Shown in pieces: positions 8,144 to 23,747 of a stretch of DNA of 64,000 nucleotides (positions are counted from its first letter, which is position 1; each line of letters begins with the position of its first letter). The position numbers and the translations under genes are program-made. The stretch is from the NCBI RefSeq assembly GCF_900091475.1, contig NZ_FMIB01000002.1, positions 3,348,001 through 3,412,000 on the forward strand, in the 5' to 3' direction. This DNA comes from Micromonospora chersina (GTDB lineage Bacteria > Actinomycetota > Actinomycetes > Mycobacteriales > Micromonosporaceae). The notes below the pieces were generated by a model. That model had not been told where the DNA came from, ran no database searches, and was given only the letters and a program-made list of their open reading frames with translations.

Positions 8144-9286
8144 TCAGCCCAGCGCCTGCTCCAGATCGGCGAGCAGGTCGTCGACCGTCTCGATGCCGAC
8201 AGACAGTCGCACGAGATCGCCGGGAACTTCAAGCGGCGAGCCGGCAGCGCTCGCGTGTGTCATCCGTCCCGGGTGCTCGATCAGGGATTCGACCCCGCCG
8301 AGCGACTCCGCGAGCACGAAGAGCTTCGCCCGGTTGCAGATCTCCACGGCGTGCTCCTCGCCGCCCGCGGCACGGAAGGAGATCATCCCGCCGAAGCGAC
8401 GCATCTGCTTGGCGGCGACCTCGTGACCGGGGTGCGCCGGCAGGCCCGGGTAGATGACCTGCGCGACCTTCGCGTGACCGTCCAGGTAGGCGGCGATCCG
8501 CTCGGCGTTGTCGCAGTGCCGGTCCATGCGTACCCCGAGGGTCTTGATGCCGCGCAGGGTGAGCCAGGCGTCGAAGGGGCCGTTGACGGCGCCCATCGCG
8601 TTCTGGTGGTAGCGCAGCTCCTCGCCGAGCGCCCGGTCCGCGGCGATCAGGGCGCCACCGACCACGTCGGAGTGGCCGCCGATGTACTTGGTGGTCGAGT
8701 GGACCACCACGTCCGCGCCGAACGCGATCGGCTGCTGGAGGTACGGCGAGGCGAAGGTGTTGTCGACCACCAGCAGCGCGTCGGCCTCGTGCGCGACGGC
8801 GGCAAGCGCGGCGATGTCGGCGATGCCGAGCAGCGGGTTGGTCGGCGTCTCCACCCAGACGATCCGGGTGGCGCCGGGGCGGATGGCCGCCCGCACCGCG
8901 TCCGGGTCGGAGACCCGGGCCGGCGTGTAGTCGAGGCCCCAGCGCTCGGCCACCTTGGCGAAGAGCCGGTAGGTGCCGCCGTACGCGTCGTCCGGGATCA
9001 CCACGTGGTCCCCGGGCTTGCAGACGGTCCGCAGCAGGGTGTCCTCGGCGGCCAGGCCGCTGGCGAAGGCGAGCCCCACCGGCCCGCCCTCCAGGGCGGC
9101 CAGGCACTCCTGGAGCGCGTCGCGGGTGGGGTTGCCGGAGCGGCTGTACTCGTAGCCCTCCCGGGGCGCGCCGACGGCGTCCTGGGCGTAGGTGCTGGTC
9201 TGATAGATCGGCGGGATCACCGCGCCGGTGCGGGCCTCCGGGTCCTGACCGGCGTGGATGGCGAGCGTCTCGAAGCCGTGACTCAT
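8144..9286 (-). CDS. metB: Cystathionine gamma-synthase
   Basis: PLP enzyme of the Cys/Met metabolism family that joins an activated homoserine to cysteine to give cystathionine. The 380-residue protein has the PLP lysine at K200 (STTKYIGGHSD) and the EYSRSGNPT loop that contacts PLP phosphate across the dimer. A gamma-lyase activity is possible, since the families overlap; cbs at 29.6-31.0 kb would act in the reverse direction. The ATG has no Shine-Dalgarno but sits 7 nt after TAACGT, so a leaderless transcript is likely. It is divergent from the HIT gene. Confidence 0.92.
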   Translation of the reverse strand: MSHGFETLAIHAGQDPEARTGAVIPPIYQTSTYAQDAVGAPREGYEYSRSGNPTRDALQECLAALEGGPVGLAFASGLAAEDTLLRTVCKPGDHVVIPDDAYGGTYRLFAKVAERWGLDYTPARVSDPDAVRAAIRPGATRIVWVETPTNPLLGIADIAALAAVAHEADALLVVDNTFASPYLQQPIAFGADVVVHSTTKYIGGHSDVVGGALIAADRALGEELRYHQNAMGAVNGPFDAWLTLRGIKTLGVRMDRHCDNAERIAAYLDGHAKVAQVIYPGLPAHPGHEVAAKQMRRFGGMISFRAAGGEEHAVEICNRAKLFVLAESLGGVESLIEHPGRMTHASAAGSPLEVPGDLVRLSVGIETVDDLLADLEQALG

Positions 9287-9299: not shown

Positions 9300-9342
9300 G
9301 TCCGCCCGCCGATCCCACCGCGTGGAACCCGCCATCAGCGCC

Positions 9343-9348
9343 TAGCCT
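9343..9348 (+). promoter_or_regulatory. -10 box of the HIT gene (leaderless type)
   Basis: TAGCCT, 6 nt before GTG 9355. No ribosome site lies between them, so the message probably begins at the start codon. Confidence 0.55.
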
Positions 9349-9354
9349 GGCGGG

Positions 9355-9774
9355 GTGGCTGGGTGCGTGTTCTGCGGGATCGTGGCGGGTGAGGTGCCGG
9401 CGTTCCGGGTCGCCGACGAGGCGGACGGCGTGGCGTTCCTGGACACCCGGCCGGTGTTCAAGGGGCACGTGCTGGTGGTGCCGCGGACCCACCTGGTGAC
9501 CCTGGCCGACCTGCCGGCCGAGGCGTTGCCCGGCTACTTCCGGCTGGTGCAGCGGCTCGCCGTGGCGGTGGAGGCCGGCCTGGGCTCGGGCGGGACGTTC
9601 GTGGCCATGAACAACAAGGTGTCCCAGTCGGTCCCCCACCTGCACACCCATGTCGTGCCGCGGACCAAGGGCGACGGGTTGCGCGGCTTCTTCTGGCCCC
9701 GGACCCGGTACGCGGACGACGCCGAGGCCCGCGGCTACGCGGAGCGCGTCGCCGCCGCCCTGGCGGGGCCCTGA
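9355..9774 (+). CDS. HIT family nucleotide-binding protein
   Basis: A 139-residue histidine-triad protein, predicted to hydrolyse or transfer nucleoside phosphates (AMP-lysine or Ap4A-like substrates). The diagnostic HLHTHVVPR lies at about residues 95-103, with the middle His as nucleophile. The N-terminal CxFC pair (residues 4 and 7) is seen in many HIT proteins and could help bind zinc. GTG 9355 fits the leaderless promoter. It is convergent with the exopolysaccharide operon, separated by a strong hairpin. Biological substrate unknown. Confidence 0.9.
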   Translation: MAGCVFCGIVAGEVPAFRVADEADGVAFLDTRPVFKGHVLVVPRTHLVTLADLPAEALPGYFRLVQRLAVAVEAGLGSGGTFVAMNNKVSQSVPHLHTHVVPRTKGDGLRGFFWPRTRYADDAEARGYAERVAAALAGP

Positions 9775-9787
9775 CCGTCCGCCGGAC

Positions 9788-9823
9788 GGGAGGCCGACGG
9801 CGACGCGCCGCCGCCGACCTCCC
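9788..9823. terminator. Bidirectional terminator between HIT gene and EPS operon
   Basis: GGGAGGCCGACGGCG (9788-9802) pairs with CGCCGCCGACCTCCC (9809-9823) with two mismatches and a 6-nt loop, between two convergent stop codons (9774 and 9831). Confidence 0.75.
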
Positions 9824-9830
9824 ACCCCCG

Positions 9831-10796
9831 CTAGCGAGGCCAGCGGTCGCGGTACCAGGCGAAGGTGCGCCGCACCCCCTCCTCCAGCGACACCACCGGC
9901 TCGTAGCCGGTGAGCGCGCGCAGCCGGGACAGGTCGGGGCACCGGCGCGCCACCGCTCCGGGCGGTGCCGGCACCGGGTCGAGCCGCGGGTCGAACTCGG
10001 CGACCCGGAGCACCAGCTTGGCGAGGTCGCCGATGTTCGTCTCCTCCGCGTCGTTGCCGATGTGCACCACCCCACCGGCGGCGGCCGGGGTGTCCATGAG
10101 CCGCACCACCGCCTCCACCGCGTCGTCGACGTGGCAGAACGCGCGGGTCTGGTCCATCCCGTACACCCGGTAGGGGTCCTCGCCGCGCAGCGCGCGCAGC
10201 GACAGTTCGGGGATCACGTGGTCGGCGCCCATCCGGGGGCCGTAGACGTTGTGGAAGCGGCCCACCACGGCCGTCAGGCCCCGGGCGCGGGCCGTGTGCA
10301 GGACGGCCGCCTCGCCGAGCAGCTTGCTGATCGCGTAGCTGAACCGGGGCGCGGTCGGGTCCGCCACCACCACCGGCACGTCCTCGGCCGTCGGCACCGG
10401 CACGAGGCCGAGGTCGACGCCGCCGGCGTACACCTCGCTCGTCGAGGCGAAGAAGAGCTTCTCGTCCGGCCGGATCCAGTCGAGCAGGTGCAGCGCCGCC
10501 AGCGTGTTGACCCGGACCACGCGGGCCGGGTCGGACTCCACGTTGCGGACCCCGACGACCGCGGCGAGCAGGTGCACCTGACCCCAGCCGTGCGGCAGGG
10601 CCGCCCAGGTCGCCGGGTCGGTCAGGTCGCCGTTGCGGATCTCCACCCCCGGGGTGTCCCGCAACGCGGCGAGGTCGGCGTCGTCGCGTCCCCGGGAGAA
10701 GTTGTCGACGATGGTCACGGCGTGCCCGTCGCGGGTCAGCCGACGGGCCAGGTGCAGGCCGATGAAACCGGCTCCGCCCAGCAGCAGCGCCCTCAC
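9831..10796 (-). CDS. NAD-dependent nucleotide-sugar epimerase/dehydratase
   Basis: A 321-residue extended short-chain dehydrogenase. GGAGFIG at residues 7-13 binds NAD and the YAISK motif supplies the catalytic Tyr and Lys. NVYGPRM and HVDDAVEA are typical of UDP-glucuronate decarboxylase, UDP-glucuronate 4-epimerase and UDP-glucose 4-epimerase. Placed directly after a nucleotide-sugar dehydrogenase (GTGA overlap), a UDP-uronic acid 4-epimerase or decarboxylase is the natural guess; sequence alone does not decide. It is the last gene of the nine-gene exopolysaccharide run. Confidence 0.85.
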   Translation of the reverse strand: MRALLLGGAGFIGLHLARRLTRDGHAVTIVDNFSRGRDDADLAALRDTPGVEIRNGDLTDPATWAALPHGWGQVHLLAAVVGVRNVESDPARVVRVNTLAALHLLDWIRPDEKLFFASTSEVYAGGVDLGLVPVPTAEDVPVVVADPTAPRFSYAISKLLGEAAVLHTARARGLTAVVGRFHNVYGPRMGADHVIPELSLRALRGEDPYRVYGMDQTRAFCHVDDAVEAVVRLMDTPAAAGGVVHIGNDAEETNIGDLAKLVLRVAEFDPRLDPVPAPPGAVARRCPDLSRLRALTGYEPVVSLEEGVRRTFAWYRDRWPR

Positions 10797-12097
10797 GCGA
10801 CCACCGCCTTCGACCGGTAGCCGAGCCCGGCGTACCGGGCGCCGGCCGCGGTGACCGCCTCCTCGTCGAGGATCCGCCAGGAGTCGTACACGAGCTTCGG
10901 GCCGTCCGCGCCGAGCATCGAGTCGATCCGGATCGCCCGGTAGTCCGGGTGGTCGTTGACGACCAGGACGGCGTCGGCCTCGCTGAACGCCTTGTCGAGG
11001 CTGATGGGCTCACCGCCGTACCGGCGGATGACCTCCGGGGCCACCATCGGGTCGTGGCCGAGCACGGTGATCCCGGCCGCCCGGAACACCGGCATCATGC
11101 TGGCGATCGGGGTGCCGCGCATGTCGTCGGTGGGGGGCCAGCCCTTGTACGCCCAGCCGAGCACGGCCAGCCGGGCGCCGTCGGCGCTCCCCCGCTGCTC
11201 GGTGATCAGGTCCACCAGGCGCTCCGCCACGTGCACGGGAAGGTGCTCGTTCAGCTCGCGGGCCCGGCCGACGAGGAACGGCTCCCGGTCCACCGAGCTG
11301 TCGATCATGATGTACGGGTCCTTGGACAGGCAGCCACCGCCGACGTACCCGGGCCTGGCCAGGTCGGGACGCGGATAGTCGAGGTTCGCCGCGCGGATGA
11401 CCTCCAGCGGATCGAGCCCGTGCCCCTCGGCGACGAGGGCGATCTCGTTGCCGTACGCGTAGATCAGGTCCGTGTGGCAGTTGTTGGCGAGCTTCACCAG
11501 CTCCGCCGCCTCCAGGCTGGAGACCGGGACCAGCTGGGCCGCCAGGCCGCCGAAGAAGTCCAGGCCGGCGCGGAGGCTCTCGTCGTCGAGGCCGCCGACG
11601 ACCTGCGGCAGCTCGACCAGTTCGCGCAGGGCCTGCCCCTGGATGGTCCGCTCCGGGGCCATCACCAACCTGGCCCGGCCCCAGGCGGCGAGCAGCACCG
11701 GCAGCACCACGGCGCGGCTGGTGCCCACCGGGACCGTGCTGCGCACCACGACCAGCGTGTCCGGCCCACACCACTCGGCCACCCCCGCGGCGGCCGAGGC
11801 GAGGTTGCGCAGGTCGGGCCGGTGGGTCTCCTCGTCCACCGGCGTGGACACGCAGATCACCGCCACGTCGACGGTGTCCGACGGCAGGCGGGTGTCGACG
11901 AAGATGGACCGGCCGCAGTGCGCGGCGAAGGTCTCCTCGACGCCCGGCTCGTAGATGTGCGGCCGGCCGTTCGACAGCGCCTCCACCACGGCCGGTGCGA
12001 CGTCGGCGCCGTGCACGGTGAAGCCCTTCCGGGCCAGGGCCGCGGTCAGGGTCAGGCCGACGTAGCCCATCCCCACCACTCCGATTGTCATGGGCAC
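10793..12097 (-). CDS. Nucleotide-sugar dehydrogenase (UDP-glucose/GDP-mannose dehydrogenase family)
   Basis: Oxidises a UDP- or GDP-sugar to its uronic acid with two NAD. The 434-residue protein has the N-terminal Rossmann motif GVVGMGYVGL, a central domain and a UDP-binding C-terminal domain. The catalytic Cys is in GGGCLSKDP, near residue 260. STPV and RSTVPVGT are family hallmarks. GTG 12097 is chosen because AGGAGA is 7 nt away; the ATG two codons later would be 13 nt away. Substrate could be UDP-glucose, UDP-GlcNAc or UDP-ManNAc. Its presence suggests the polymer contains a uronic acid, unlike fungal galactosaminogalactan. Confidence 0.88.
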   Translation of the reverse strand: MPMTIGVVGMGYVGLTLTAALARKGFTVHGADVAPAVVEALSNGRPHIYEPGVEETFAAHCGRSIFVDTRLPSDTVDVAVICVSTPVDEETHRPDLRNLASAAAGVAEWCGPDTLVVVRSTVPVGTSRAVVLPVLLAAWGRARLVMAPERTIQGQALRELVELPQVVGGLDDESLRAGLDFFGGLAAQLVPVSSLEAAELVKLANNCHTDLIYAYGNEIALVAEGHGLDPLEVIRAANLDYPRPDLARPGYVGGGCLSKDPYIMIDSSVDREPFLVGRARELNEHLPVHVAERLVDLITEQRGSADGARLAVLGWAYKGWPPTDDMRGTPIASMMPVFRAAGITVLGHDPMVAPEVIRRYGGEPISLDKAFSEADAVLVVNDHPDYRAIRIDSMLGADGPKLVYDSWRILDEEAVTAAGARYAGLGYRSKAVVA

Positions 12098-12132
12098 TCG
12101 TGTGTCTCCTGTCGTTCGAGTCGGTTGACTGG

Positions 12133-13062
12133 TCAGGGGCAGGGTGGGTGGACGCGGTCGAGCGCCCGGGAGGTCACGTACCCCCCGAAGCCCTCCTGCC
12201 GGTACCGGGCGCAGGCGGCCCGGACATCCTCGGCGCGGTCGGCGTAGTCGACGGCGAGGACCTGTTTGCCCGCGTCGCGCAGGGCTCGGGCGTTGCCGAG
12301 GTTCTCCTCGCACCAGCTCTCGGTGCACGGGTCACCGGGTGAGCGGTAGAAGAGGTCCTCCATGCCGATCCCGTCGATCGCCGCGGTGTAGCCGTCGTAC
12401 GCACGCAGCTCCGGGGAGTTCTGCGGGTACACCAGCAGGCCGGGCCGCTGCCCCTTGGCGTACCGGCTGATCCGGACGATCAGCTCGACCATGGCGCGGG
12501 CCAGGTCGGTGCGGCTCCGACCCGGGGTCAGCGCCAGGTCCAGCTCCTCGTAGGCCAGCGGGGTGTCCAGGTAGATCCCGTCGAATCCGGCCCGGACGGC
12601 CTGGTCGATCCGGGGCCGGACGGCCATGTCCCACCACCGCTGCTCCCAGTAGCGGACGAAGAACTCGTCGGGCCAGTCCGGCCACCGGTTGAGGACGAGG
12701 CCCGGCTCCTGCCGGATCCGCGGGTACTCCGGCCGGAACTGCTCGATGCTGCCGATCTCGAAGTAGGCCAGCACGACCTTGCCCGAGGACCGCAGCGCCC
12801 CGACCTCCGCCCGGGTGAAGTAGTCGGCGTGGGCGTCCCGGGCCAGGTCGATCACGGCGAGCGGCTGCGGCGTCCTGGCCAGCTCGTCGAGCCGCCCGCC
12901 GGGGTAGCCCTGCAACTGGTAGACCCATCCGCCGCTCACCGGGGCCGGCCCGGTCCGGATCTCCGCGGGGCGCGCCGGGCCGTCCCGCGTGCAGCCGGTG
13001 ACGGCGAGGGCCAGCCCGACGGCCAGTGCCACCATCGCGCGCCACCGGCCGCCGAGGCTCAC
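12133..13062 (-). CDS. GH114-like glycoside hydrolase lipoprotein (Ega3-like)
   Basis: A 309-residue protein with a lipoprotein signal (VTGC, Cys24), so it should sit on the outer face of the membrane. The rest is a TIM-barrel of the GH114/TM1410 type: AYFEIGSIEQFR, DGIYLDTP with a likely catalytic Asp, LLVYPQN and VLAVDYAD near the end. GH114 enzymes such as fungal Ega3 cut alpha-1,4-galactosaminan. In this operon it could trim or release the polymer. Its GTG overlaps the preceding epimerase stop by four bases. The family call rests on motif pattern, not on a search. Confidence 0.8.
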   Translation of the reverse strand: MSLGGRWRAMVALAVGLALAVTGCTRDGPARPAEIRTGPAPVSGGWVYQLQGYPGGRLDELARTPQPLAVIDLARDAHADYFTRAEVGALRSSGKVVLAYFEIGSIEQFRPEYPRIRQEPGLVLNRWPDWPDEFFVRYWEQRWWDMAVRPRIDQAVRAGFDGIYLDTPLAYEELDLALTPGRSRTDLARAMVELIVRISRYAKGQRPGLLVYPQNSPELRAYDGYTAAIDGIGMEDLFYRSPGDPCTESWCEENLGNARALRDAGKQVLAVDYADRAEDVRAACARYRQEGFGGYVTSRALDRVHPPCP

Positions 13063-13955
13063 CTGTCGTCCTCACCGACCCACACCGCCTTCACCGACTC
13101 CGCCAGCTCGTACGTCGGCGCCCAGCCCAGCAGCCGGGCCGCCCGCGAGCTGTCCCCCTGGATCCAGGAGACCGCGGCGGACCGGGTGGGCGGCGGCGCC
13201 TCCTCGCGGATCGCGCCGTCGAAGCCGGCCGCCTCGGCGAGCAGTTCCACCACCCGGCGGGTGGGCACGGCCCGGCCGCTGGCGAGGTTCAGCACCCGGG
13301 CGTCCAGCCGGGGCACGAACGCGGCCGCGACGACCCCGGCCGCCACGTCCCGCACGTCGACGAAGTCGCGGTGCGCCGACAGCGGCCCCATCGTGATCTC
13401 GCCGGCGCCGGTACGCCGGGCGTGCCGGATGAGCGCCGCCGCCCGGCCGAGCACGGTGTCCTCGTGCAGGCCCGGGCCGATCGGGTTGAACACCCGCAGC
13501 GTCACGCCGTCCACCCGGCCGGCCGCGCTGCTCAGCTCCAGCAGCGCGGTGGCGGCCAGGTGGCTCAGCCCGTACGGGCTCACCGGCCGGGCCGGGTCGT
13601 CCTCGCCGACCGGCCGTCCGGGCGGCACCGGGCCGTACTCGCCGGCCGAGCCCAGCCGGACGAGGCGGACACCCGGCGCCGCCTCGCCGATCGCGTCGAT
13701 CAGCTTCGCGGTCACCGCCGTGTTGGCCGCGACCAGGTCGTGGTTGCCGCCGGAGAGCGCGCCGGTGCAGTTGATCACGACGTCCGGACGGGCGGCCCGC
13801 AGCAACGCCACCACGTCGGCGACCCGTCCGTGGACGAGGTCGAGGTCGGCGCGGCCCGGCGTGGTGAGTTCGCCGAGGCGCGGATCCTGCCGGAGGTGCC
13901 GGCACACCTGGCGGCCGATGAAGCCGGAGCCGCCGAAGACGAGCACCCGCGTCAT
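13059..13955 (-). CDS. NAD-dependent sugar epimerase/reductase with altered YxxxK motif
   Basis: A 298-residue extended short-chain dehydrogenase with FGGSGFIG (residues 6-13) for NAD(P) and SAGEYG before the active-site region. The usual YxxxK reads YGLSH, so Lys is replaced by His at residue 132. [11 protein letters not shown] is typical of nucleotide-sugar enzymes (UDP-glucose 4-epimerase, GDP-deoxysugar reductases). It may be the Uge3 counterpart supplying UDP-galactose or UDP-GalNAc, but the substitution makes activity uncertain. It overlaps both neighbours by four bases. Confidence 0.8.
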
Positions 13956-14686
13956 ACCGCCTCCACCTCCTTCTCCTTCTGCCGCAGCAGCACCGGCTTG
14001 AGCTGCTCGAAGCTGCGGTTCGCCTCGTCGTAGTCCTCGGGGTGTCCGATGTCGACCCAGTAGCCCTCGAAGTCGTAGCTCGCCGGCGGGTCGCCGCGCT
14101 GGATCAGGTCGAGCACGAGCTGGTCGAAACCGAAGGACAGACCCTCCGGGTACGGGGCCAGCGCCCGCCGGGACATGCCGTACACACCCATGCTGACCCG
14201 GTAGCGGAACGTCGGCTTCTCGGTGAAACCGACGACGTGCCGGTCCCGTACGTCGAGGACGCCGAACTCGATCGGCACGGTGCGGACCGCGGTGGCCACG
14301 GTCAGCGACGCGTCCGACAGCGCGTGGCCGTGCAGCAGGTCGGCGAAGTCGAGGTCCGTGAGCACGTCCCCGTTCATCACCACGAAGTGCTCGGGCAGCC
14401 GGTCGCGGAGCGCGAACAGCGGCCCCACTGTCGACAGCGGCACCGTCTCCTCGGCGTACTCGACCTGGAGTCCCCAGGACGACCCGTCCCCGACGAACGC
14501 CCTGATGAGCGGGCCGAGGTGGTTGATCGCCAGCGTGACGTGCGTGAACCCGCACACCGACAACTGGTGCAGCACCACCTCCAGCACCGCGTGGTTGTCG
14601 CCGATCGGCACCAACGGTTTGGGCAGGGCCGTCGTGTAGGGGCGCAGCCGGACACCCTTGCCACCGGCCAGGATCACCGCATGCAT
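13952..14686 (-). CDS. Sugar-1-phosphate nucleotidyltransferase
   Basis: Activates a sugar-1-phosphate with an NTP to give the nucleotide sugar. The 244-residue protein carries the signature [11 protein letters not shown] ... PKPL at residues 8-28, [11 protein letters not shown] for metal binding and EKPTF for sugar binding. It lacks the C-terminal hexapeptide repeat of GlmU-like enzymes, so it resembles glucose- or mannose-1-phosphate nucleotidyltransferases. ATG 14686 has GGAGG 4-5 nt upstream. Sugar and nucleotide cannot be told from sequence. Confidence 0.88.
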
Positions 14687-14703
14687 CTCTCCTCCGTCCT
14701 CGT

Positions 14704-16152
14704 TCACTGGTATCGCCACGCCTGCCCGAGCACCCGGGACAGGGCGGCGAGGAGCATTGCCTGGAGCAGGACGGCGCTGCCGAGGAAGCCGGCGGCGTCG
14801 GCCAGTGGATGGGATCCGCCCGGCACGAGCAGCAGCACCGCCAGGTGCGCGGCCAGCGCGCTGCCGAGCAGCGCGCTGAGCCGGCCGAACCGGCCGTGCC
14901 CGGCGAGGACGAACGCCAGGAAGTACGCGCCGGCGACGGCGACGTGCGCCGCCACCAGCACGGTGCCCGCCGGGCTGAGCAGCCCGGCCTGGCGCAGGGG
15001 CGCGAACATCGCCAGCGCCAGGCCCGCCACCGCGGCTGTGACCACCGCCAACTCGACGGCCAACCCGGCCCAGACGCCCGCGGCGAACCGGCGTGTGTCC
15101 CTCGCCTGGCGGAGCCGGGCCCGGGCCCGTTCGTGGAACCGGCGGGCCCGCCACTCCACCAGGCCCATGCCGAGCACGAGCGGCGCCGCGGCGACCGCGA
15201 GGTCCAGCGGGCCGGACAGGTGACGCGCCGCCGAGTGCAGCAGGAACGCGGCCGAGAGCGCCGCGTACAGCAGAACGGCGCAGAGCTGCGGCAGTTCGGG
15301 GCGGACGGCGCGGTGCAGGGGCACGGCGGCGGGTGGCGTCGTGGGCCACGCGTACCAGCCGGGGAGGTCGGTCCGGGTGAACCAGGCCAGCGCCACGACG
15401 AACGCCAGGGCCACCGACCCGGCGGCCACGGCCACCGCGACCGGGGCGCTGGGCGCCCCGACCAGCAGGTATCCCCCGCCGGCCACGGCGGCGGGCGCCA
15501 TCGCGGCGAGCAGCGCGCCCTCCCGCCGGTAGAAGAGGGCGGCGGTCACGGCCGCCTGGTACATCAGCAGCGCCCCGGCCAGCAGGACCGGTGGCAGGTC
15601 AGCACCGGTCCTGCCGGCCAGGGCAGCCGTGGCGGCGGCCGCGACCGCCGGGCCGAGCAGCGTCGACCAGCCGAGCAGCCGGGCGGCTACGCGGACCAGG
15701 CCCCGCCCGACCAGGCGGTAGGCCAGCCAGGCCGTCCCGCCCGACCAGACCCAGCCGAGCGGCCCCACCAGCAGCAGCGCGAGCGTCACCGACCGTTCGT
15801 CGACGATCGCCAGCACGGCCGGGAGCACCACGCCCGGCATCAGGTACAGCAGCCCGTGCGACACGTCGCGGGCGGCGCGGACCGGATCCTCCGCGGCGGG
15901 CCGGGCGGCAGCCCGCGGCCGGATCTCCTGGTCCAGTCGCCGGAACACGGCCTCGGCCAGCACGAAGACGTCGGGATGGTCGTAGTGGTCCCGGGCCGAC
16001 CGGTCGGTCAGGCCGTCGGACTCCAGCGCGGCGGCCACCTGGAGCGCGTCGACCGGTCGTCCGACCCGGGGGCGCATCCGCTCGACCAGGCCGACCACCG
16101 GGTCGTCGGCCCGGGGCGGCACCGGCGCGGGGGCCGCGATGGTCCCGGTCAT
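14704..16152 (-). CDS. Polytopic membrane protein of the EPS operon (possible PelG-like exporter)
   Basis: A 482-residue protein. The first 90 residues are hydrophilic ([20 protein letters not shown] and an acidic/basic linker); from about residue 95 there are roughly twelve hydrophobic helices in pairs, with a charged loop near residue 360. I cannot match it firmly to a family. Its place immediately after the PelF-like glycosyltransferase (ATGA overlap), with about 12 helices, is what one would expect for a PelG-type polymer transporter. The N-terminal soluble extension is not usual for PelG and may dock another protein. Function inferred from context only. Confidence 0.6.
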
Positions 16153-17594
16153 GCCGCCGCCACCGGTTGCCCGGTGAGGTGGCGGTAGATCCGCCGGTAC
16201 GCCTCGATGGACTGGTCGAGCGTGAAGTGCGCGAGGACGCGTTCGCGCGCCGCGGCGCCCAGCCGGGTCCGCAGCGGTGCGTCCTGGAGCAGCCGTACGC
16301 AGGCGGCCGCCACCGCCGCGTGGTCGCGCGGCGGCACCACGTACCCGGCGTCGCCCACCGCCTCGGCCACCCCGCCGACGTTGGTGCAGACCACCGGGCG
16401 GCCGCAGGCCATCGCCTCGACCACCGAGTACGGGAAGCCCTCGGAGATGCTGGTGAGCGCCACCACCTGCCCCTGGTGGTACGCCGCCACGGACTGGTCC
16501 ACCCGGCCCTCGAGCACGGCGTCACCGGTGAGCCCGAGGTCGGCGATGAGCTTCTGGCAGCTGTCGCGGTAGTCGGCGCCGCCGGCCGGAGCGTCCCCGA
16601 AGATCCGCAGCCGGGCACCGGGCACCTCCGCCCGGACCAGCGCGAAGGCCCGGATCAGGGTGTGCAGGTCCTTGATCGGGTCGATCCGGCCGAGGTAGAC
16701 GATCACCGGCTGGGCCGGCTCGCCCCGCGCCGCCGGGAACTCGTCCGGGTCGACGCCGTTGTAGACGGTCCAGATGCGCTCCGGGTCGGCGCCGTTGCGC
16801 AGTTGCCACCGCCGGTTGTAGCCGCCGTGCGGGGCCAACGCGTCGACCAGGAGGTACGCGGCCCGGGCGAGCTGGCGCTGGAAGCCGAGCACCAGCACCT
16901 GGACCGGGTACGGCTCGTCGGACGCGAGCAGGTCGAGGTAGCGCTCGCGCAGGTACATGCCGTGCTCCGACATGATCATCGGGGTGCCGTACCGCCAGCG
17001 GGCGGTCATCCCGACCAGCGCGCAGAGCCCGTTCATGGAGGAATGGACGAGATCGGCCCGGACCGGCTCGGCCGAGAGCGGGCGGAGCAGGTGCTCGATC
17101 CAGGCGAGCGCGCCGACGGTGTCGGCGAGGCCGAGGGCCGGCTCCTGCGGCCGGACACCCCGCCAGGCGTCCATCGTCATGCCGACCGCGGTGTTCGAGG
17201 TCAGGGCGTCGGTGAGGTCGCCGCCCCGGACGGCGTACTCGTGCAGGAGGCGCAGGGCGTGCAGGAACCGCATGCGGCTCATCTCCTCCCGTCCCGGGTG
17301 CGGGTCGTCGGGGCGCAGGACGGCGCCCAGCAGCGCGGCGAAGCCCTCCCGGAAGTCCCGCCCCGGCCGTCGTCCCGCGCCGCGGCGCTCGGGCCGGGGT
17401 CCCCACAGCGGGATGGTGCGCAGCCGGCCGAGGTTCGGTGGCGGCGCCCACCGTGGCCGTTCGGTGTCGTCCACGGTGAGCGCCACCATCTCCCAGTCGT
17501 GCTCGGGCAGTCCCCGGATGAGCTGGTCGCACCAGATGCTCACGCCGCCCATGGCGAACGGGTAAGTCCCCTCGGAGACCAGCGCCACCTTCAC
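16149..17594 (-). CDS. PelF-like GT4 glycosyltransferase
   Basis: Likely the polymerising glycosyltransferase of the cluster, cytosolic and using a UDP-sugar. The 481-residue protein opens with EGTYPFAMGGVSIW (residues 8-21), the hallmark of PelF proteins (DUF3492). It continues with MSEHGMYLRER and a C-terminal GT-B half containing YLGRIDPIKD, EGFPYSVVEAMACG (the EX7E motif) and nucleotide contacts. PelF makes the GalNAc-rich Pel polymer from UDP-GalNAc; donor here is inferred by analogy. GTG 17594 overlaps the stop of the deacetylase gene (GTGA). Confidence 0.87.
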   Translation of the reverse strand: MKVALVSEGTYPFAMGGVSIWCDQLIRGLPEHDWEMVALTVDDTERPRWAPPPNLGRLRTIPLWGPRPERRGAGRRPGRDFREGFAALLGAVLRPDDPHPGREEMSRMRFLHALRLLHEYAVRGGDLTDALTSNTAVGMTMDAWRGVRPQEPALGLADTVGALAWIEHLLRPLSAEPVRADLVHSSMNGLCALVGMTARWRYGTPMIMSEHGMYLRERYLDLLASDEPYPVQVLVLGFQRQLARAAYLLVDALAPHGGYNRRWQLRNGADPERIWTVYNGVDPDEFPAARGEPAQPVIVYLGRIDPIKDLHTLIRAFALVRAEVPGARLRIFGDAPAGGADYRDSCQKLIADLGLTGDAVLEGRVDQSVAAYHQGQVVALTSISEGFPYSVVEAMACGRPVVCTNVGGVAEAVGDAGYVVPPRDHAAVAAACVRLLQDAPLRTRLGAAARERVLAHFTLDQSIEAYRRIYRHLTGQPVAAA

Positions 17595-19765
17595 CGCAGC
17601 GGACTCGCCGGGATGGTGACCGGCTGCCCGGCCGACAGCGTGACCGGCGCGGACACCTCGCTGCCGTAGGTGGTGGCGGTCGCGGTGCGCGCACCGCTCA
17701 CGGTGAGCGTGCCGGCCCTGGGCGAGCTGATCGTGACGGTGCCGGCGGCCTGGTCGAACACCCCGTCCACCCCGGCCGAGAGCTGCGCGAAGTGCTCGTT
17801 CCGGTCGACCGCCCGCTGGGCCAGGGCCGGCCAGTCCAGGCTGAGCACCGGCACGGCGTAGTACGCGCTGTACTTGCCGAGCAGGCTGTCCAGCCAGTCG
17901 GTGAGCAGCGTCCGGCCACTGCCGTAGTCGCGCAGGTTGGCGATGTGGAAGGTGTGGCTGTAGAGCGAGCCGCCGCTCAGGTGGCTCAGGGCCACGTCGG
18001 TCTCGGCCGAGACCACCTGGTTGTAGGTGAGGTTCGCCGGCCAGTACGGGAACTTGCCGTTCGGGCCGTAGAAGGAGTTGTAGAAGGCGGTCTCCTCGGC
18101 CGGCGTGGTGCAGTGGTACGCGATGTTCGTCGGCCAGTCCGGCACCACCGAGACGCCCGGCTCCATCGGGTGCGTGATGGCGCAGTTGAAGCAGGCCGGC
18201 TTGTGGCTCGGGAACGACATGTTGCCGTGCAGGTACTTCACGCCGAGGTCGCGGGCCGCCCGCAGCAGCTCCGGGTTGGACGCCGTCAGGCCGTAGTCCG
18301 TCGGCGGGTCGGTGTCGTTGTCCGGGTTCGGGTTGTAGACGCCGAGGCCCGAGTACTCGCCGGTCTTGAGCACGGTGCCGTCCACCGGGAGACCGAGCCG
18401 GCGGGCCACGGCGAGGTTGTCGGCGATCTCGGCCCGGCTCGTGGCGTAGTCGGTGAAGTTCATCTCGGGGTGGGTCAGCGTGTGGTTGATCCACCGGAAC
18501 TGGTTCGCCAGGCACCGGGTCGTGGCGGTGAGCCGGCTGACCCCGCCGTACGGGTAGCACCGGTTGCCCGCGTTCAGGTTCGCGTCGCCGCCGTTGTACG
18601 CCATCCCCAGGGTGAGCGTGCCGGCCAGCGGGTACTTCTGGCGCAGTGCCTGTTGCCGCAGGCTGACGTTGTACGCGTCGTGCCCGGACATCTGGTAGCC
18701 GGGGTCGGACTCGATGTGGCCGTCCGGGTAGTAGTGGTCCGCCGAGTTGAACCAGTCGTCGACGTCGACGTGCAGGTAGTGGCGCTGCTCCCCGAGGAAG
18801 AGCCCGCGGCTGGCCCACCGGAACAGCCCGTACGCCAGCAGGTCGGACTGGAGCAGGTACTGGTTGGACGTGAAGGTCAGCATCAGCCGCTCGCGGCCGT
18901 CGGCGGACGGGCTCAACACCCCGAGGGTGTCGTTACCGGCGCTCAGGACCGGGGTGGCCGAGCAGTCCGACCGCACGGCGGTGCGGTAGACGTACGACTC
19001 GACGACGGGCACCTGGGCGCTGGGCTTGAGGTAGTCGAAGATCCCGGCCCCGGCGGTGGTCAGCGTCGTCTTCAGTGGTGTGGCGCCGACCGCGCCCTCG
19101 CTCACCGCCCCGAGGCAGTAGTCCTCGGGCCAGGTGCCGTGGCTGCCGTAGAGCACCGCCTGGCGCACCCCGTAGTCGCGCTCGTACGCCCAGAGCAGGT
19201 TCCACTCGTCGGCGGTGAGGCCGCTGACGTATCCGCCGTTCTCCGCGTAGAGCAGGCTGCTGTTGGTCAGCAGGACCGCCCCGTAGCGGCCGACGCCGTC
19301 CGGGCGTACCAGGGTCTCCGCGGCGAGCGGGGCGTCGCGGGTCAGCAGCACGTCGTAGGCGGCCCCGACACGGTCCAGCGTCGACGTCCAGGTCGGCAGG
19401 CCGAAGTCGCTCTCGTCGACGGCGACGACGAGAGCCCGCAGCGCGACCTTGCCGGTCGCCGTCGCGGACACGGCGCCGTCCGGTGCCACGCTCAGCGTGG
19501 AGGCGCCGGAGCGGGCCGAGCCCCCGTCCGTCCCGGAGCGGAAGGTCTCCGTCCGGCGCAGTGGCACGGAACCCTTCCGGCGGGGCAGCGCCTCCGGCCT
19601 GTCGAGTTCCTGCCCCGCCGCCACCGCGGCCAGGCCGACGACCGACGGCGGTGCCGTGTCCGGTCGGGCCGGTGCCGCCGAGCCCGGACCGACACGCACC
19701 GTGCTCGTCACCACCAGCGCCGCGACGGCGACCGCCAGCGTGCGGACGACTACGGAACGACCCAT
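17591..19765 (-). CDS. Large secreted polysaccharide deacetylase, Agd3/CE18-like
   Basis: A 724-residue secreted protein with a signal peptide (about 1-30), an N-terminal domain (about 80-320) and a catalytic domain beginning DVDDWF at residue 334. Metal-binding residues are the Asp pair there and HTLTH near residue 427; later sections include GEYSG and SHTFHI. This layout and the DVDDWF plus HxxxH spacing recall Agd3 of Aspergillus (CBM87 plus CE18), which removes acetyl groups from GalNAc in galactosaminogalactan. The last 60 residues form a small beta-rich tail. ATG 19765 has GGAGG 7 nt upstream. An outright CE4 assignment fits less well. Confidence 0.8.
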   Translation of the reverse strand: MGRSVVVRTLAVAVAALVVTSTVRVGPGSAAPARPDTAPPSVVGLAAVAAGQELDRPEALPRRKGSVPLRRTETFRSGTDGGSARSGASTLSVAPDGAVSATATGKVALRALVVAVDESDFGLPTWTSTLDRVGAAYDVLLTRDAPLAAETLVRPDGVGRYGAVLLTNSSLLYAENGGYVSGLTADEWNLLWAYERDYGVRQAVLYGSHGTWPEDYCLGAVSEGAVGATPLKTTLTTAGAGIFDYLKPSAQVPVVESYVYRTAVRSDCSATPVLSAGNDTLGVLSPSADGRERLMLTFTSNQYLLQSDLLAYGLFRWASRGLFLGEQRHYLHVDVDDWFNSADHYYPDGHIESDPGYQMSGHDAYNVSLRQQALRQKYPLAGTLTLGMAYNGGDANLNAGNRCYPYGGVSRLTATTRCLANQFRWINHTLTHPEMNFTDYATSRAEIADNLAVARRLGLPVDGTVLKTGEYSGLGVYNPNPDNDTDPPTDYGLTASNPELLRAARDLGVKYLHGNMSFPSHKPACFNCAITHPMEPGVSVVPDWPTNIAYHCTTPAEETAFYNSFYGPNGKFPYWPANLTYNQVVSAETDVALSHLSGGSLYSHTFHIANLRDYGSGRTLLTDWLDSLLGKYSAYYAVPVLSLDWPALAQRAVDRNEHFAQLSAGVDGVFDQAAGTVTISSPRAGTLTVSGARTATATTYGSEVSAPVTLSAGQPVTIPASPLR

Positions 19766-19835
19766 TTCCCGACCTCCAGGGGGGCAAAAAGGACAAACAA
19801 TCTAATACGGATATGAACTTCCCGGACGCATAGAT

Positions 19836-19857
19836 GAGTCCCCCTCGGGGGGCACTC
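19836..19857 (-). promoter_or_regulatory. GC hairpin in the leader of the deacetylase gene
   Basis: GAGT-CCCCC (19836-19844) pairs with GGGGG and ACTC (to 19857) around a two-base turn. It lies in the 200-bp gap between the GH135-like gene and the deacetylase gene. It could end the upstream transcript or attenuate the downstream one. Confidence 0.45.
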
Positions 19858-19887
19858 GGGGAACCTAACAGGACCAATCAGGCGTTG

Positions 19888-19921
19888 CAGGCAAAAGGTG
19901 CATCATCGGCAGTTTTGCCTG
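19888..19921 (-). promoter_or_regulatory. AT-rich inverted repeat upstream of the deacetylase operon
   Basis: CAGGCAAAA (19888-19896) and TTTTGCCTG (19913-19921) are perfect 9-bp inverted arms 16 nt apart. A CAATCAG direct repeat occurs at 19875-19881 and 19924-19930. No U-run follows on either strand, so an operator or attenuator is more likely than a terminator. Confidence 0.5.
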
Positions 19922-19965
19922 GTCAATCAGTAAGTCCCCAATGGACATTCGCCGGAGGTCCGGCG

Positions 19966-20910
19966 TCAACGGGGCGAGGCGACGTCGACCGCCCACGGGA
20001 CCGCACGACCGGCGGCGGCCAGCAACTCGGCCCGCCACCAGTCCTCGCCCGGCATCGAGATCCACGGGTGGCCGAGACCGTCCACCGTGTGACTACCGTC
20101 CGTGACGTGGACGAAGCCCACGTTGCGCCCCTTGCTCAGGGCCACGGCGCGCCGCAGGCCGGCCGGGCCGGGGGCTGCGTAGACGAGGTGCCAGAACCGC
20201 TCCGCCGGCAGTTCGCCCTCCCAGCCGGACGGTCGCCAGTCCAGATAGTCCCGGTACGGCCCCTCGAAGGTGACGAGGGTGTCCGCGAGGTCGCGGTAGC
20301 AGCGCTCGGTGGTGCGCCCCGGGTTCATGACGAGGTAGGCGCCGGGGTGCCGCTCGCGGATCCGGGCGACGACCGCCCGGTAGCTGTCGACGTACCCGTC
20401 GTCCGGGCCGCAGAGGGCGGTGGTCCGGTCCAGGAAGATCCCCTGGAGCCCGGCCGCCCCGTACACCCGGTACCAGTCGTCGATGTCGCGGTCGATCTGC
20501 GCCGTCCAGGAGTCCACGTCGGAGCGCCCCCGGCCGGGCCCGTCAGGTCGGGTCACCTGCCCCGGCCCACCGAAGGTCAGTCCGAGGTAGCCGGTGTCCA
20601 CGTAGCCGATCGGCCGGGCACCGGCGCGGTGCAGCAGCGTGAAGGCATGGCCCCAGTGCGGGTCGTACGGAAGCTCCGGCGCGCTGCGCGAGCCGTTCAC
20701 GACGACGATGCCGGCGGCGGGGCCGGCTCGTCCCAGCCGCTCGAACATGGCCCGCCCGTCCGCCGTGGCGGGTGACCAGTAGGCCGGCAGCCCCAGCCGC
20801 TGCGGGAACGCCTCCGCGCCCTCACCGCCACCGATGAGCGCCAGGGGCATCAGGAACACCGCCAGCAGGCCGACCCTCGCGGCACGTCGCACGCCACCAT
20901 CCGAGAACAT
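19966..20910 (-). CDS. Spherulin-4-like glycoside hydrolase, GH135 type (Sph3-like)
   Basis: A 314-residue protein with an N-terminal hydrophobic signal (about 8-33). The mature domain starts FPQRLGLPAYW and contains GIVVVNG, GYVDTGYLG, GIFLDRT (a likely acidic active-site residue), LVMNPG, VTFEGPY, HLVYAAP and VGFVHVTDG. This set matches the spherulation-specific family 4 barrel, whose fungal member Sph3 (GH135) hydrolyses GalNAc in galactosaminogalactan. It is the first gene of the minus-strand run, 200 bp before the deacetylase gene, so it could be a separate transcript. The ATG has only a weak ribosome site. Confidence 0.82.
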   Translation of the reverse strand: MFSDGGVRRAARVGLLAVFLMPLALIGGGEGAEAFPQRLGLPAYWSPATADGRAMFERLGRAGPAAGIVVVNGSRSAPELPYDPHWGHAFTLLHRAGARPIGYVDTGYLGLTFGGPGQVTRPDGPGRGRSDVDSWTAQIDRDIDDWYRVYGAAGLQGIFLDRTTALCGPDDGYVDSYRAVVARIRERHPGAYLVMNPGRTTERCYRDLADTLVTFEGPYRDYLDWRPSGWEGELPAERFWHLVYAAPGPAGLRRAVALSKGRNVGFVHVTDGSHTVDGLGHPWISMPGEDWWRAELLAAAGRAVPWAVDVASPR

Positions 20911-20920
20911 CGTGGAGTCC

Positions 20921-20948
20921 GTCGGCCGGGCCGACTGAAGACTCAGTC
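20921..20948 (-). promoter_or_regulatory. Tandem small inverted repeats upstream of the GH135-like gene
   Basis: GTCGGC/GCCGAC (20921-20935) and GACTGA/TCAGTC (20933-20948) overlap 10-40 bp before the ATG on the minus strand. A TTGACT lies just beyond them, but no good -10 is at the right distance. Possible operator or leader hairpins. Confidence 0.3.
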
Positions 20949-21095
20949 AAGGTAACGGACTATTCACATCAGACAGCCTGATTCCCGGAAAATGTTCAAT
21001 TGCGGCACGTAACCGCGCAGCGATCACAAGCCGGGTAAGGAACCCGGGGCCGGTGCTGTTGCACACGCTGGGAAAGCCAAGAGAGGAGTCCCACC

Positions 21096-21906: not shown

Positions 21907-21960
21907 ACCGACATCAGCTCAACAGGCGAACCGCAACAACCTCTGGCAGCATTGCCCGGC

Positions 21961-23745: not shown

Positions 23746-23747
23746 CC

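Follow-up and report, generated by a model that had tools for sequence, protein, structure and literature searches.

Evidence for a probable subtype of PelF-type, Agd3-containing exopolysaccharide operon in Micromonospora chersina

Bacterial operons of the general kind studied here have been known in print since 2020, when Bamford et al. (PMC7229062) reported Agd3 homologues in 45 bacterial species. The bacterial Agd3 operons described in that paper encoded a cytoplasmic glycosyltransferase, a multi-spanning membrane protein, and a GH114 protein, and some of the actinobacterial operons also encoded Spherulin-4. CM3 was reported to be conserved in most bacterial Agd3 homologues, and galactosamine polymers of actinomycetes were noted in the discussion without being assigned. 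The original prediction for the M. chersina cluster knew of no description of such a locus, but the kind of locus was already in print. Pel loci had also been reported from actinobacteria (PMC7112168), and a literature search on PelF in actinomycete genera yielded nothing relevant in the sources returned.

The M. chersina cluster shares Agd3 with CBM87, a glycosyltransferase, a multi-spanning protein, and a PF03537 hydrolase with the operons of Bamford et al. (PMC7229062), whose text on bacterial operons mentioned no nucleotidyltransferase-SDR-dehydrogenase-decarboxylase set, no actinobacterial PelF assignment, and no Agd3 subtype lacking the CM3 Arg. A subtype distinguished by dedicated sugar-making genes and a modified trimming enzyme is apparently new. 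Agd3 (CE18/CBM87), Sph3 (GH135), and a PF03537-type galactosaminidase are also common to the fungal galactosaminogalactan (GAG) cluster. However, compared by family only, the fungal cluster has the integral-membrane Gtb3, whereas M. chersina has a DUF3492/GT4 PelF and a separate membrane-protein gene. The fungal cluster also has Uge3, and the M. chersina cluster has no epimerase of that grade. It further differs in its GH191-like hydrolase, in an Agd3 without the CM3 Arg and CM4 Met, and in its extra nucleotide-sugar genes. The features shared with the pel loci of Gram-positive and Gram-negative bacteria are a PelF above the NCBIfam cut-off, an adjoining polytopic protein, and deacetylase and hydrolase functions; in contrast to those loci, the M. 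chersina deacetylase is of the CE18 type rather than CE21 (PelA; PMC12022489) or CE26 (PelADA; PMC13254593), and a PelG match is lacking. Finally, in B. cereus NVH 391-98 a UDP-GlcNAc 6-dehydrogenase and UXNAcS produce UDP-N-acetylxylosamine, a route that its authors likened to the conversion of UDP-glucose to UDP-xylose (PMC5078965). We read the UXNAcS step as a decarboxylation, and by description this pair resembles the NDP-sugar 6-dehydrogenase and UXS-like enzyme of M. chersina.

Organization and genomic position of the cluster

The window, which is the whole 64-kb stretch of M. chersina DNA that was analyzed, contained nine minus-strand coding sequences, the outermost ends of which lay at 9831 and 20910. 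The features were as follows:

9780..21031, no strand assigned, cluster-bearing extra DNA with no counterpart at the orthologous site of related genomes
20911..21031, minus strand, operon upstream region within the extra DNA; putative promoter region, by position only
19966..20910, minus strand, GH135/Spherulin-4 (Sph3-like) secreted hydrolase, 314 aa (PF12138 Spherulin4, E 2.4e-25)
17591..19765, minus strand, Agd3-like CE18 de-N-acetylase with CBM87, 724 aa (PF25115 Agd3_CE, 6e-12; PF25116 CBM87_Agd3, 1.9e-10)
16149..17594, minus strand, PelF-type GT4 (DUF3492 and GT-B), probable polymerase (PF11997, 1.8e-44; NF038011)
14704..16152, minus strand, polytopic membrane protein, 482 aa, putative export partner (hydropathy)
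13952..14707, minus strand, sugar-1-phosphate nucleotidyltransferase (PF00483, 2.7e-32)
13059..13955, minus strand, extended SDR nearest to GDP-6-deoxy-hexulose reductases (RMD-like) (PF01370, 1.2e-34; 2pk3, E 4.7e-19)
12133..13062, minus strand, secreted lipoprotein, GH191-type endo-galactosaminidase (PF03537, 2.4e-33)
10793..12091, minus strand, NDP-sugar 6-dehydrogenase (TIGR03026, 291 bits)
9831..10796, minus strand, extended SDR nearest to UDP-glucuronate decarboxylase (UXS) (PF01370, 2e-43; 4lk3, E 1.1e-36)

Six of the eight junctions were 4-bp overlaps when the GTG start at 14707 was used for the nucleotidyltransferase (the profile scans of this protein used the alternative ATG start at 14686); the GH135-Agd3 and GH191-dehydrogenase junctions were gaps of 200 bp and 41 bp, respectively. 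The original prediction had thus placed nine same-strand, mostly overlapping genes correctly. The profile searches that it proposed, judged against curated Pfam and NCBIfam cut-offs, put the CE18/CBM87, GH135, PF03537, and PelF (DUF3492) profiles all above threshold, and its GH135/Sph3-like hydrolase, Agd3-like deacetylase, PelF-like polymerase, polytopic membrane protein, nucleotidyltransferase, and nucleotide-sugar dehydrogenase were all recovered. Its two epimerases were indeed two SDRs, but one of them was nearest to UDP-glucuronate decarboxylase.

In related genomes without the cluster, an asparagine-synthetase-like gene directly followed the HIT-domain gene that is located at 9355-9774 in M. 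chersina. The L101 and L103 matches ending at 9779 and starting at 21032 shared one base, which defined the junction to about 1 base. The M. chersina cluster is a clean insertion of ~11.25 kb, or else it was lost in the relatives. A tRNA-linked island was considered and rejected: the tRNA-Arg(gcg) predicted at 9339-9424 by ARAGORN was likely a false positive, because it overlapped the start of the HIT gene and was also predicted in the cluster-less L100 and L101, with no prediction in L103, L105, L108, or L064.

Polymerase, membrane protein, and secreted enzymes

The PelF assignment was based on a score of 175.1 bits against NF038011 (cut-off 100), and both Glu residues of the EX7E pair (E385/E393) were kept in 72/72 homologues. 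The adjoining polytopic protein has an N-terminal part of ~100 aa followed by ~10 TM segments predicted from hydropathy, and it had no match in Pfam and NCBIfam searches. An ordinary PelG was rejected at the profile level, since PF16933 had no match to this protein or anywhere else in the M. chersina genome. PF16933 matched 1/19 members of the polytopic family (E 2.9e-4, presumably L092), and a direct profile comparison of the family with five PelG sequences gave a probability of 0.1. An intermediate family (P0182-P0228), in which PF16933 matched 2/47 members, matched the polytopic family with a probability of 98.6 (reversed control, 0.1) and the five PelGs weakly from end to end (P 0.016; reversed control, 0.27). 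This link is suggestive, and any kinship of the polytopic protein to PelG would be very distant. PF16963 (PelD) had no match, and the control genomes gave none either. The predicted merger with Pel-type genes held for PelF; beyond PelF it was not supported, since PelG had no match in this genome.

The secreted Agd3-like enzyme, which has a signal peptide as judged by eye, was placed by profile alignment on the Agd3 structure 6nwz. The CM1 Asp-Asp (D336/D337), CM2 HxxxH (H428/H432), and CM4 His (H607) of CE18 were all present; D336/D337 and H428/H432 were kept in 90/91 sequences (1 gap) and H607 in 91/91. In contrast, D543 and T605 occupied the positions of the base-coordinating CM3 Arg (R613) and the CM4 Met (M666). 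In Aspergillus Agd3, R613 was described as integral for activity, and conversion of M666 to Ala abrogated adhesion (PMC7229062). The CM3 position of 91 sequences from 75 loci held Asp in 82, Cys in 6, Gly in 1, Arg in 1, and a gap in 1, and Asp was found in 120/120 of the matches listed (120 of 458 homologues); both counts were biased toward Asp because the CM3 Asp was itself part of one of the two peptide patterns searched for. Profile sampling without this bias gave Asp in M. chersina, Cys in G008 and G012, and Arg in L096, L097, and L118-L121. Together with L076, these last made up seven Arg-type homologues, of which five had the CM4 Met and two (L076 and L121) had Tyr. In a quick tree of 34 selected sequences, some of which sat on long branches, the Agd3s of the module formed one clade without the base-coordinating Arg, and the seven Arg-keeping homologues fell outside it. 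None of the seven was accompanied by nucleotide-sugar genes, and a few members of the Arg-less clade also lacked them. This clade is apparently new; given the missing CM3 Arg and CM4 Met, its members may have a different substrate or only weak activity.

The secreted lipoprotein, in which a lipobox (AVTGC) was recognized by eye, had been predicted to be GH114/Ega3-like. Against sequences of solved structures, it was far nearer to GH191 (Env-GH191 9ep5, E 4.1e-76; TM1410, 1.2e-25) than to GH114 (9ep6, 3e-7; Ega3 6oj1, E 0.001), and its putative catalytic residues D166/E235 were kept in 54/54 homologues. GH191 has been reported to be active on Pel (PMC12054363). The GH135 protein has a Sec-type signal peptide (by eye), and its putative catalytic pair D161/E216 aligned with the Asp and Glu of the Sph3 structures 5c5g/5d6t in a weak match (E 0.018). 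A GH135 gene was present in only 3/73 related Agd3 loci, so this enzyme is incidental to the module; with the hydrolase being GH191-like as well, the fungal-type trio was not supported as the defining feature of the locus. On the whole, the CE18/CBM87, GH135, and PelF calls of the original prediction stood, and the novelty of the locus, the fungal trio, and the Pel merger past PelF were not supported.

Nucleotide-sugar genes and conservation of the module

The nearest PDB entry to the nucleotidyltransferase was GDP-mannose pyrophosphorylase beta (4e-23). In the RMD-like SDR of M. chersina, YxxxH replaces YxxxK, and the usual Lys position held His in 47, Lys in 16, Arg in 6, and a gap in 1 of 70 sequences. 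The dehydrogenase was nearest to UDP-N-acetyl-D-mannosaminuronic acid dehydrogenase (4r16, 2.6e-51), and its active-site Cys (C254 in GGGCLSKDPY) was kept in 65/65. For the decarboxylase-like SDR, the next different enzyme after 4lk3 matched at 9.6e-28. Its T119, E121, R151, Y154, K158, N183, and R285, each kept in 65/65, aligned with Thr118, Glu120, Arg144, Tyr147, Lys151, Asn176, and Arg277 of human UXS (Table 3 of PMC12820599), with positions counted by hand from the sequence alignment; the second tyrosine of UXS (Tyr84) aligned with V86, which was Val in 65/65. Both SDRs scored 68-69 bits against the galE model TIGR01179 (cut-off 262), and their nearest structures were other enzymes. A GalE above the cut-off was found elsewhere in the genome (C2:3551543).

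A neighborhood survey, which the original prediction had suggested for Micromonosporaceae, covered 73 Agd3 loci in named genomes and found the same gene order in dozens of other genomes, which argued that the grouping was not due to chance. PelF and the polytopic protein occurred together in 70/73 loci, the nucleotidyltransferase in 68/73, the RMD-like SDR in 67/73, the dehydrogenase and decarboxylase-like SDR in 63/73, and the GH191-like gene in 54/73. A PelA-hydrolase (GH166)-like gene, which is absent from the M. chersina cluster, was present in 50/73 sister loci. The carriers were Actinomycetota and Thermaceae (two loci), with Meiothermus among them, and this conserved module is apparently new. 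Ten of the 73 loci lacked the dehydrogenase and decarboxylase-like SDR; four were at contig ends (L015, L038, L045, and L051), and six were not (L036, L040, L050, L060, L076, and L078). The genomes of L060, L050, and L036 hold a second, fuller copy (L071, L063, and L048, respectively), and no second locus was returned for those of L078 and L040. The nucleotide-sugar enzymes, which the original prediction named without emphasis, set the subtype apart; the altered CE18 active site had been out of its reach.

Proposed product and its alternatives

Judged from its gene content, the locus is probably a distinct subtype of PelF-type, Agd3-containing exopolysaccharide operon, and its polymer likely includes a second sugar made by the operon. 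The PelF-like GT4 would polymerize a UDP-GalNAc-type precursor in the cytoplasm, and the polytopic protein would carry the chain through the membrane. The secreted Agd3-like enzyme, as a CE18 member, would strip N-acetyl groups to yield an adhesive polycation. Trimming or release of the polymer would fall to two hydrolases, the secreted GH135 and the GH191 lipoprotein. A second nucleotide sugar would be supplied by the nucleotidyltransferase, RMD-like SDR, dehydrogenase, and decarboxylase-like SDR. The most likely product would be a partly de-N-acetylated GalNAc-type polymer, in line with the original prediction, with this second sugar added. Frequent linkage of the four genes and intact catalytic residues point to such a sugar, and the product is probably a copolymer rather than plain Pel or fungal GAG. 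Several observations speak against this reading: the missing CM3 Arg and CM4 Met of Agd3, the Val in place of the second UXS tyrosine, the loss of the usual Lys in most RMD-like SDRs, and the loci without the dehydrogenase and decarboxylase-like SDR. Furthermore, the operon contains only one glycosyltransferase, so that joining two sugars would require either that PelF be bifunctional or that another transferase be encoded elsewhere. A fuller version is tentative: the second sugar could be an operon-made pentose or N-acetyl-pentosamine, with CE18 re-tooled to suit the copolymer (CM3 Arg to Asp/Cys, CM4 Met/Tyr to Thr) and an exporter too remote from PelG for any PelG profile to detect, across Actinomycetota and Thermaceae.

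It seems unlikely that the locus is a plain GAG/Pel homologue that makes only poly-alpha-1,4-GalNAc, with nucleotide-sugar genes that are mere neighbors serving another glycan. Every tailoring enzyme does belong to a family known in GAG or Pel, GalE could supply UDP-GalNAc from elsewhere in the genome, and L060 and L078, which encode an Asp-type Agd3, PelF, and the polytopic protein, lack all four nucleotide-sugar genes (L036 and L040 lack some). However, the four genes stay with PelF/Agd3 in 63-68 of the 73 loci, including both Thermaceae loci. Somewhat less probable still is a glycan of the cell wall or spore envelope, possibly under developmental control, rather than a biofilm exopolysaccharide. 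Many of the carriers are filamentous, differentiating actinomycetes, and a possible function in the sporangium matrix was considered because many of them form sporangia. An ORF family was also found flanking 15/73 loci, in 14 of which the ORF lay immediately upstream of Agd3 and was encoded on the other strand; the one member scanned (L029) was a BTAD (SARP-type) regulator. The module is nevertheless carried by Meiothermus, which is non-sporulating, and no relative of the L029 regulator was encoded in the 64-kb window. A locus for degradation or for targeting competitors, directed at galactosamine polymers from fungi or other bacteria, is very improbable: the families of the three secreted enzymes do act on polymers of this kind, but the gene layout, with its six 4-bp overlaps, points to co-transcription of the PelF synthase, the polytopic protein, and the sugar-nucleotide genes, which fits synthesis.

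The M. chersina operon thus probably serves to synthesize, trim, and export an adhesive amino-sugar coat akin to those of Aspergillus and Pseudomonas. If the exopolysaccharide reading is true, bacterial Agd3/PelF loci would split into a GAG/Pel-like, Arg-type set and another set in which a dedicated sugar-nucleotide pathway goes together with a modified deacetylase. Both the CE18 mechanism without the base-coordinating Arg and the chemical nature of the galactosamine polymers of actinomycetes would become directly testable in laboratory strains of this group, and such loci would be a source of new polymers and galactosaminidases.

Layout and chromosomal site of the cluster

The interval 9831-20910 was filled by nine CDSs, all on the minus strand, and these are listed in transcription order, followed by three genes outside the cluster.

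20910-19966, minus strand, GH135/Spherulin-4 gene (first)
19765-17591, minus strand, Agd3-like gene (second)
17594-16149, minus strand, PelF-like GT4 gene (third)
16152-14704, minus strand, polytopic protein (fourth)
14707-13952, minus strand, nucleotidyltransferase (fifth)
13955-13059, minus strand, SDR-1, RMD-like (sixth)
13062-12133, minus strand, PF03537 lipoprotein (seventh)
12091-10793, minus strand, NDP-sugar dehydrogenase (eighth)
10796-9831, minus strand, SDR-2, UXS-like (ninth)
8144-9286, minus strand, Cys/Met-metabolism PLP enzyme (outside)
9355-9774, plus strand, HIT gene (outside)
21952-23745, plus strand, asparagine-synthetase-like gene, PF00733 (outside, divergent)

The original prediction of nine same-strand genes with mostly 4-base overlaps was borne out, as six of the eight junctions were 4-bp overlaps; a 200-bp gap separated the GH135 gene from the rest. 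The asparagine-synthetase-like gene was followed by an apparent GNAT plus ATP-grasp protein; the set (21952-25574) may resemble the N-acetylglutaminylglutamine osmolyte operon. A tRNA-Arg(gcg) called by ARAGORN at 9339-9424 overlapped the start of the HIT gene and is probably a false positive.

The window genome assembly comprised 6.68 Mb in 2 contigs, and the closest Agd3 homologue among the matches listed was 96% identical and annotated as Micromonospora chersina. Searches of overlapping samples gave Agd3_CE hits in 3 of the 61 relatives covered and, within the genus, in 3 of 37 genomes (the window genome included); the counts were 4 of 394 across the class and 6 of 396 across the phylum. 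A HIT-gene search matched 41 same-genus genomes, and 12 loci were fetched, one of them the window's own. The asparagine-synthetase-like gene directly followed HIT in 5 of the 11 loci from other genomes; no match to it was present within the 1.5 kb examined in the other six. For L101 and L103, the match jumped from window position 9779 to 21032 with one base shared, so approximately 9780-21031 is extra DNA in the window, reflecting either a clean insertion in this genome or the clean loss of this stretch from the relatives. Some unmatched bases lay between the two genes in L100, L105 and L108. The site was occupied in M. fulviviridis (L064), as in the window, and in genomes G008 and G012 the cluster lay elsewhere, approximately 0.5 Mb from HIT. 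The G008 and G012 clusters carried a PelA-hydrolase-like gene, and neither GH191 nor GH135 was detected in them.

Conservation of the module

A search for Agd3 relatives in which each species was represented by a single genome gave 73 loci, from Micromonosporaceae, Streptosporangiaceae, Pseudonocardiaceae, other actinomycetes, two Thermaceae and one gammaproteobacterial MAG. At fixed score thresholds, these held Agd3 (73), PelF (70), the polytopic protein (70), nucleotidyltransferase (68), SDR-1 (67), dehydrogenase (63), SDR-2 (63), a GH191-like gene (54) and GH135 (3; L064, L066 and L072). The commonest order (34/73) was Agd3, PelF, polytopic protein, nucleotidyltransferase, SDR-1, GH191, dehydrogenase and SDR-2, then a tenth gene; in L056, Agd3 was placed after SDR-2, away from PelF. 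The dehydrogenase and SDR-2 were missing from ten loci, four at a contig edge (L015, L038, L045 and L051) and six away from one (L036, L040, L050, L060, L076 and L078); L036, L050 and L060 were second loci in genomes that also hold a fuller one.

The original prediction had placed GH135 among the defining enzymes. It is instead a local addition outside the core module; it occurred in only 3 of the 73 loci and lay directly upstream of Agd3 in just two loci, the window and L064. In G239 and G268, genomes from one other family of the phylum, PelF, PelG, Agd3 and a Spherulin-4 gene occurred together in the Agd3 loci. The tenth gene of the sister operons resembled the PelA hydrolase domain (5tcb, 1.9e-12). 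This GH166-like gene was found in 50 of the 73 loci (e.g., L009:20203-20922), with several misses at locus ends, closed most sister operons and had an intact Asp/Glu pair in all 52 cases; none was found in the window or L064. No signal peptide was seen by eye in the 13 loci inspected, and a cytoplasmic galactosaminidase within a synthesis operon would be odd.

Several other features recurred. Tandem Agd3-like pairs were present in 16 loci, mostly of Pseudonocardiaceae (L016, L053, L055, L057-L059, L061-L063, L065-L067, L069, L071, L075 and L077), the first gene being a short fragment in L075. The Thermaceae (Deinococcota) loci L072 and L079 held the module with the dehydrogenase and SDR-2 divergent from Agd3, and Thermaceae branched first within the module in a quick midpoint-rooted PelF tree. 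A flanking ORF family recurred in 15 loci; in 14 of these the ORF lay immediately upstream of Agd3 and was encoded on the other strand, and in L040 it was on the plus strand. The sole member scanned (L029:8958-9824) was a BTAD-domain (SARP-type) regulator, and the window held no relative of it.

The original prediction knew of no such locus in this group, but the kind of system is already known. For the subtype, no description was found in the open-licence literature searched, which excluded the figure and supplements of PMC7229062 (operon drawings).

Revised enzyme identities

Among solved-structure sequences, the PF03537 protein matched 9ep5 (4.1e-76) and TM1410 (1.2e-25) far better than 9ep6 (3e-7) and Ega3 (1e-3). 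PMC12054363 assigns 9ep5 (Env-GH191) and TM1410 to GH191 and 9ep6 (F. solani) to GH114, and reports Env-GH191 as active on Pel. By these matches, the lipoprotein is GH191-like, not GH114/Ega3-like as first proposed.

"Two epimerases" had also been proposed. SDR-2 was nearest human UDP-glucuronate decarboxylase (1.1e-36; next different enzyme, 9.6e-28), and SDR-1 was nearest GDP-6-deoxy-hexulose reductases (4.7e-19). The dehydrogenase was nearest UDP-N-acetyl-mannosaminuronic acid dehydrogenase (2.6e-51) and the nucleotidyltransferase GDP-mannose pyrophosphorylase beta (4e-23); all four matches indicate nearest relatives, not substrates. SDR-2 T119, E121, R151, Y154, K158, N183 and R285, which correspond to signature positions given for human UXS in Table 3 of PMC12820599, were present in 65 of 65 aligned homologues; at an eighth UXS position checked, Tyr84, all 65 had V86 instead.

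The polytopic protein had 61 homologues at E 1e-3 among 8000 candidates scored, and for none of these had a Pfam domain been precomputed. A direct comparison with PelG was negative. An intermediate family from other Actinobacteria (P0182-P0228), in which 2 of 47 members carried PF16933, was clearly related to the window family (hhalign 98.6; reversed control, 0.1). The polytopic protein is taken, by position, as the functional counterpart of PelG and is likely homologous to it.

The altered CE18 active site

In Aspergillus Agd3, PMC7229062 gives D377 as the base, D378/H510/H514 as metal ligands and H668 as the acid; R613 (motif CM3) coordinates the base and is described there as integral to activity. 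The M666A change (CM4) abrogated adhesion. Alignment to 6nwz, with a numbering offset derived by hand, indicated that the window protein retained D336, D337, H428, H432 and H607 and had D543 in place of R613 and T605 in place of M666. The register was confirmed because Arg-bearing homologues aligned at the same motif (L096/L097, VVPRYPTN; L076, VPRWPTN; L118-L121, VPR or IPR; window, VVPDWPTN). These seven homologues had Met (5) or Tyr (2; L076 and L121) at the Met position.

In 91 module-type sequences from 75 loci, a search biased towards Asp because one pattern contained it, position 543 was D (82), C (6), G (1), R (1; L076) or a gap (1), and position 605 was T (90) or Y (1; L076). In profile-based sampling, residue 543 was Cys in G008/G012, and six loci carried Arg there. 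A quick Agd3 tree of 34 rows separated 27 non-Arg from 7 Arg rows by a branch with support of 100. No relatives of the nucleotidyltransferase, SDR-1, SDR-2 or dehydrogenase were detected at E 1e-3 in any of the seven Arg loci (5-22 kb examined, limited by contig in L119 and L120).

The pairing of the Asp form with nucleotide-sugar genes is not a strict rule; Asp-form Agd3 occurred without the four genes in L050, L060 and L078 and with only some of them in L036 and L040. The change maps to a single branch, so the association of Arg loss with the gene set is one event and could be coincidence. Arg-type Agd3 stood beside PelF and a polytopic relative in L121 (G856), with a Spherulin-4 relative, and in L119 (G573), with a PelA-hydrolase-like gene; sugar-nucleotide genes were detected in neither (L119 contig-limited), a content closer to a minimal GAG-like operon. 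Loss of the Arg need not mean loss of function, because CE21 PelA, according to PMC12022489, also lacks it and is active.
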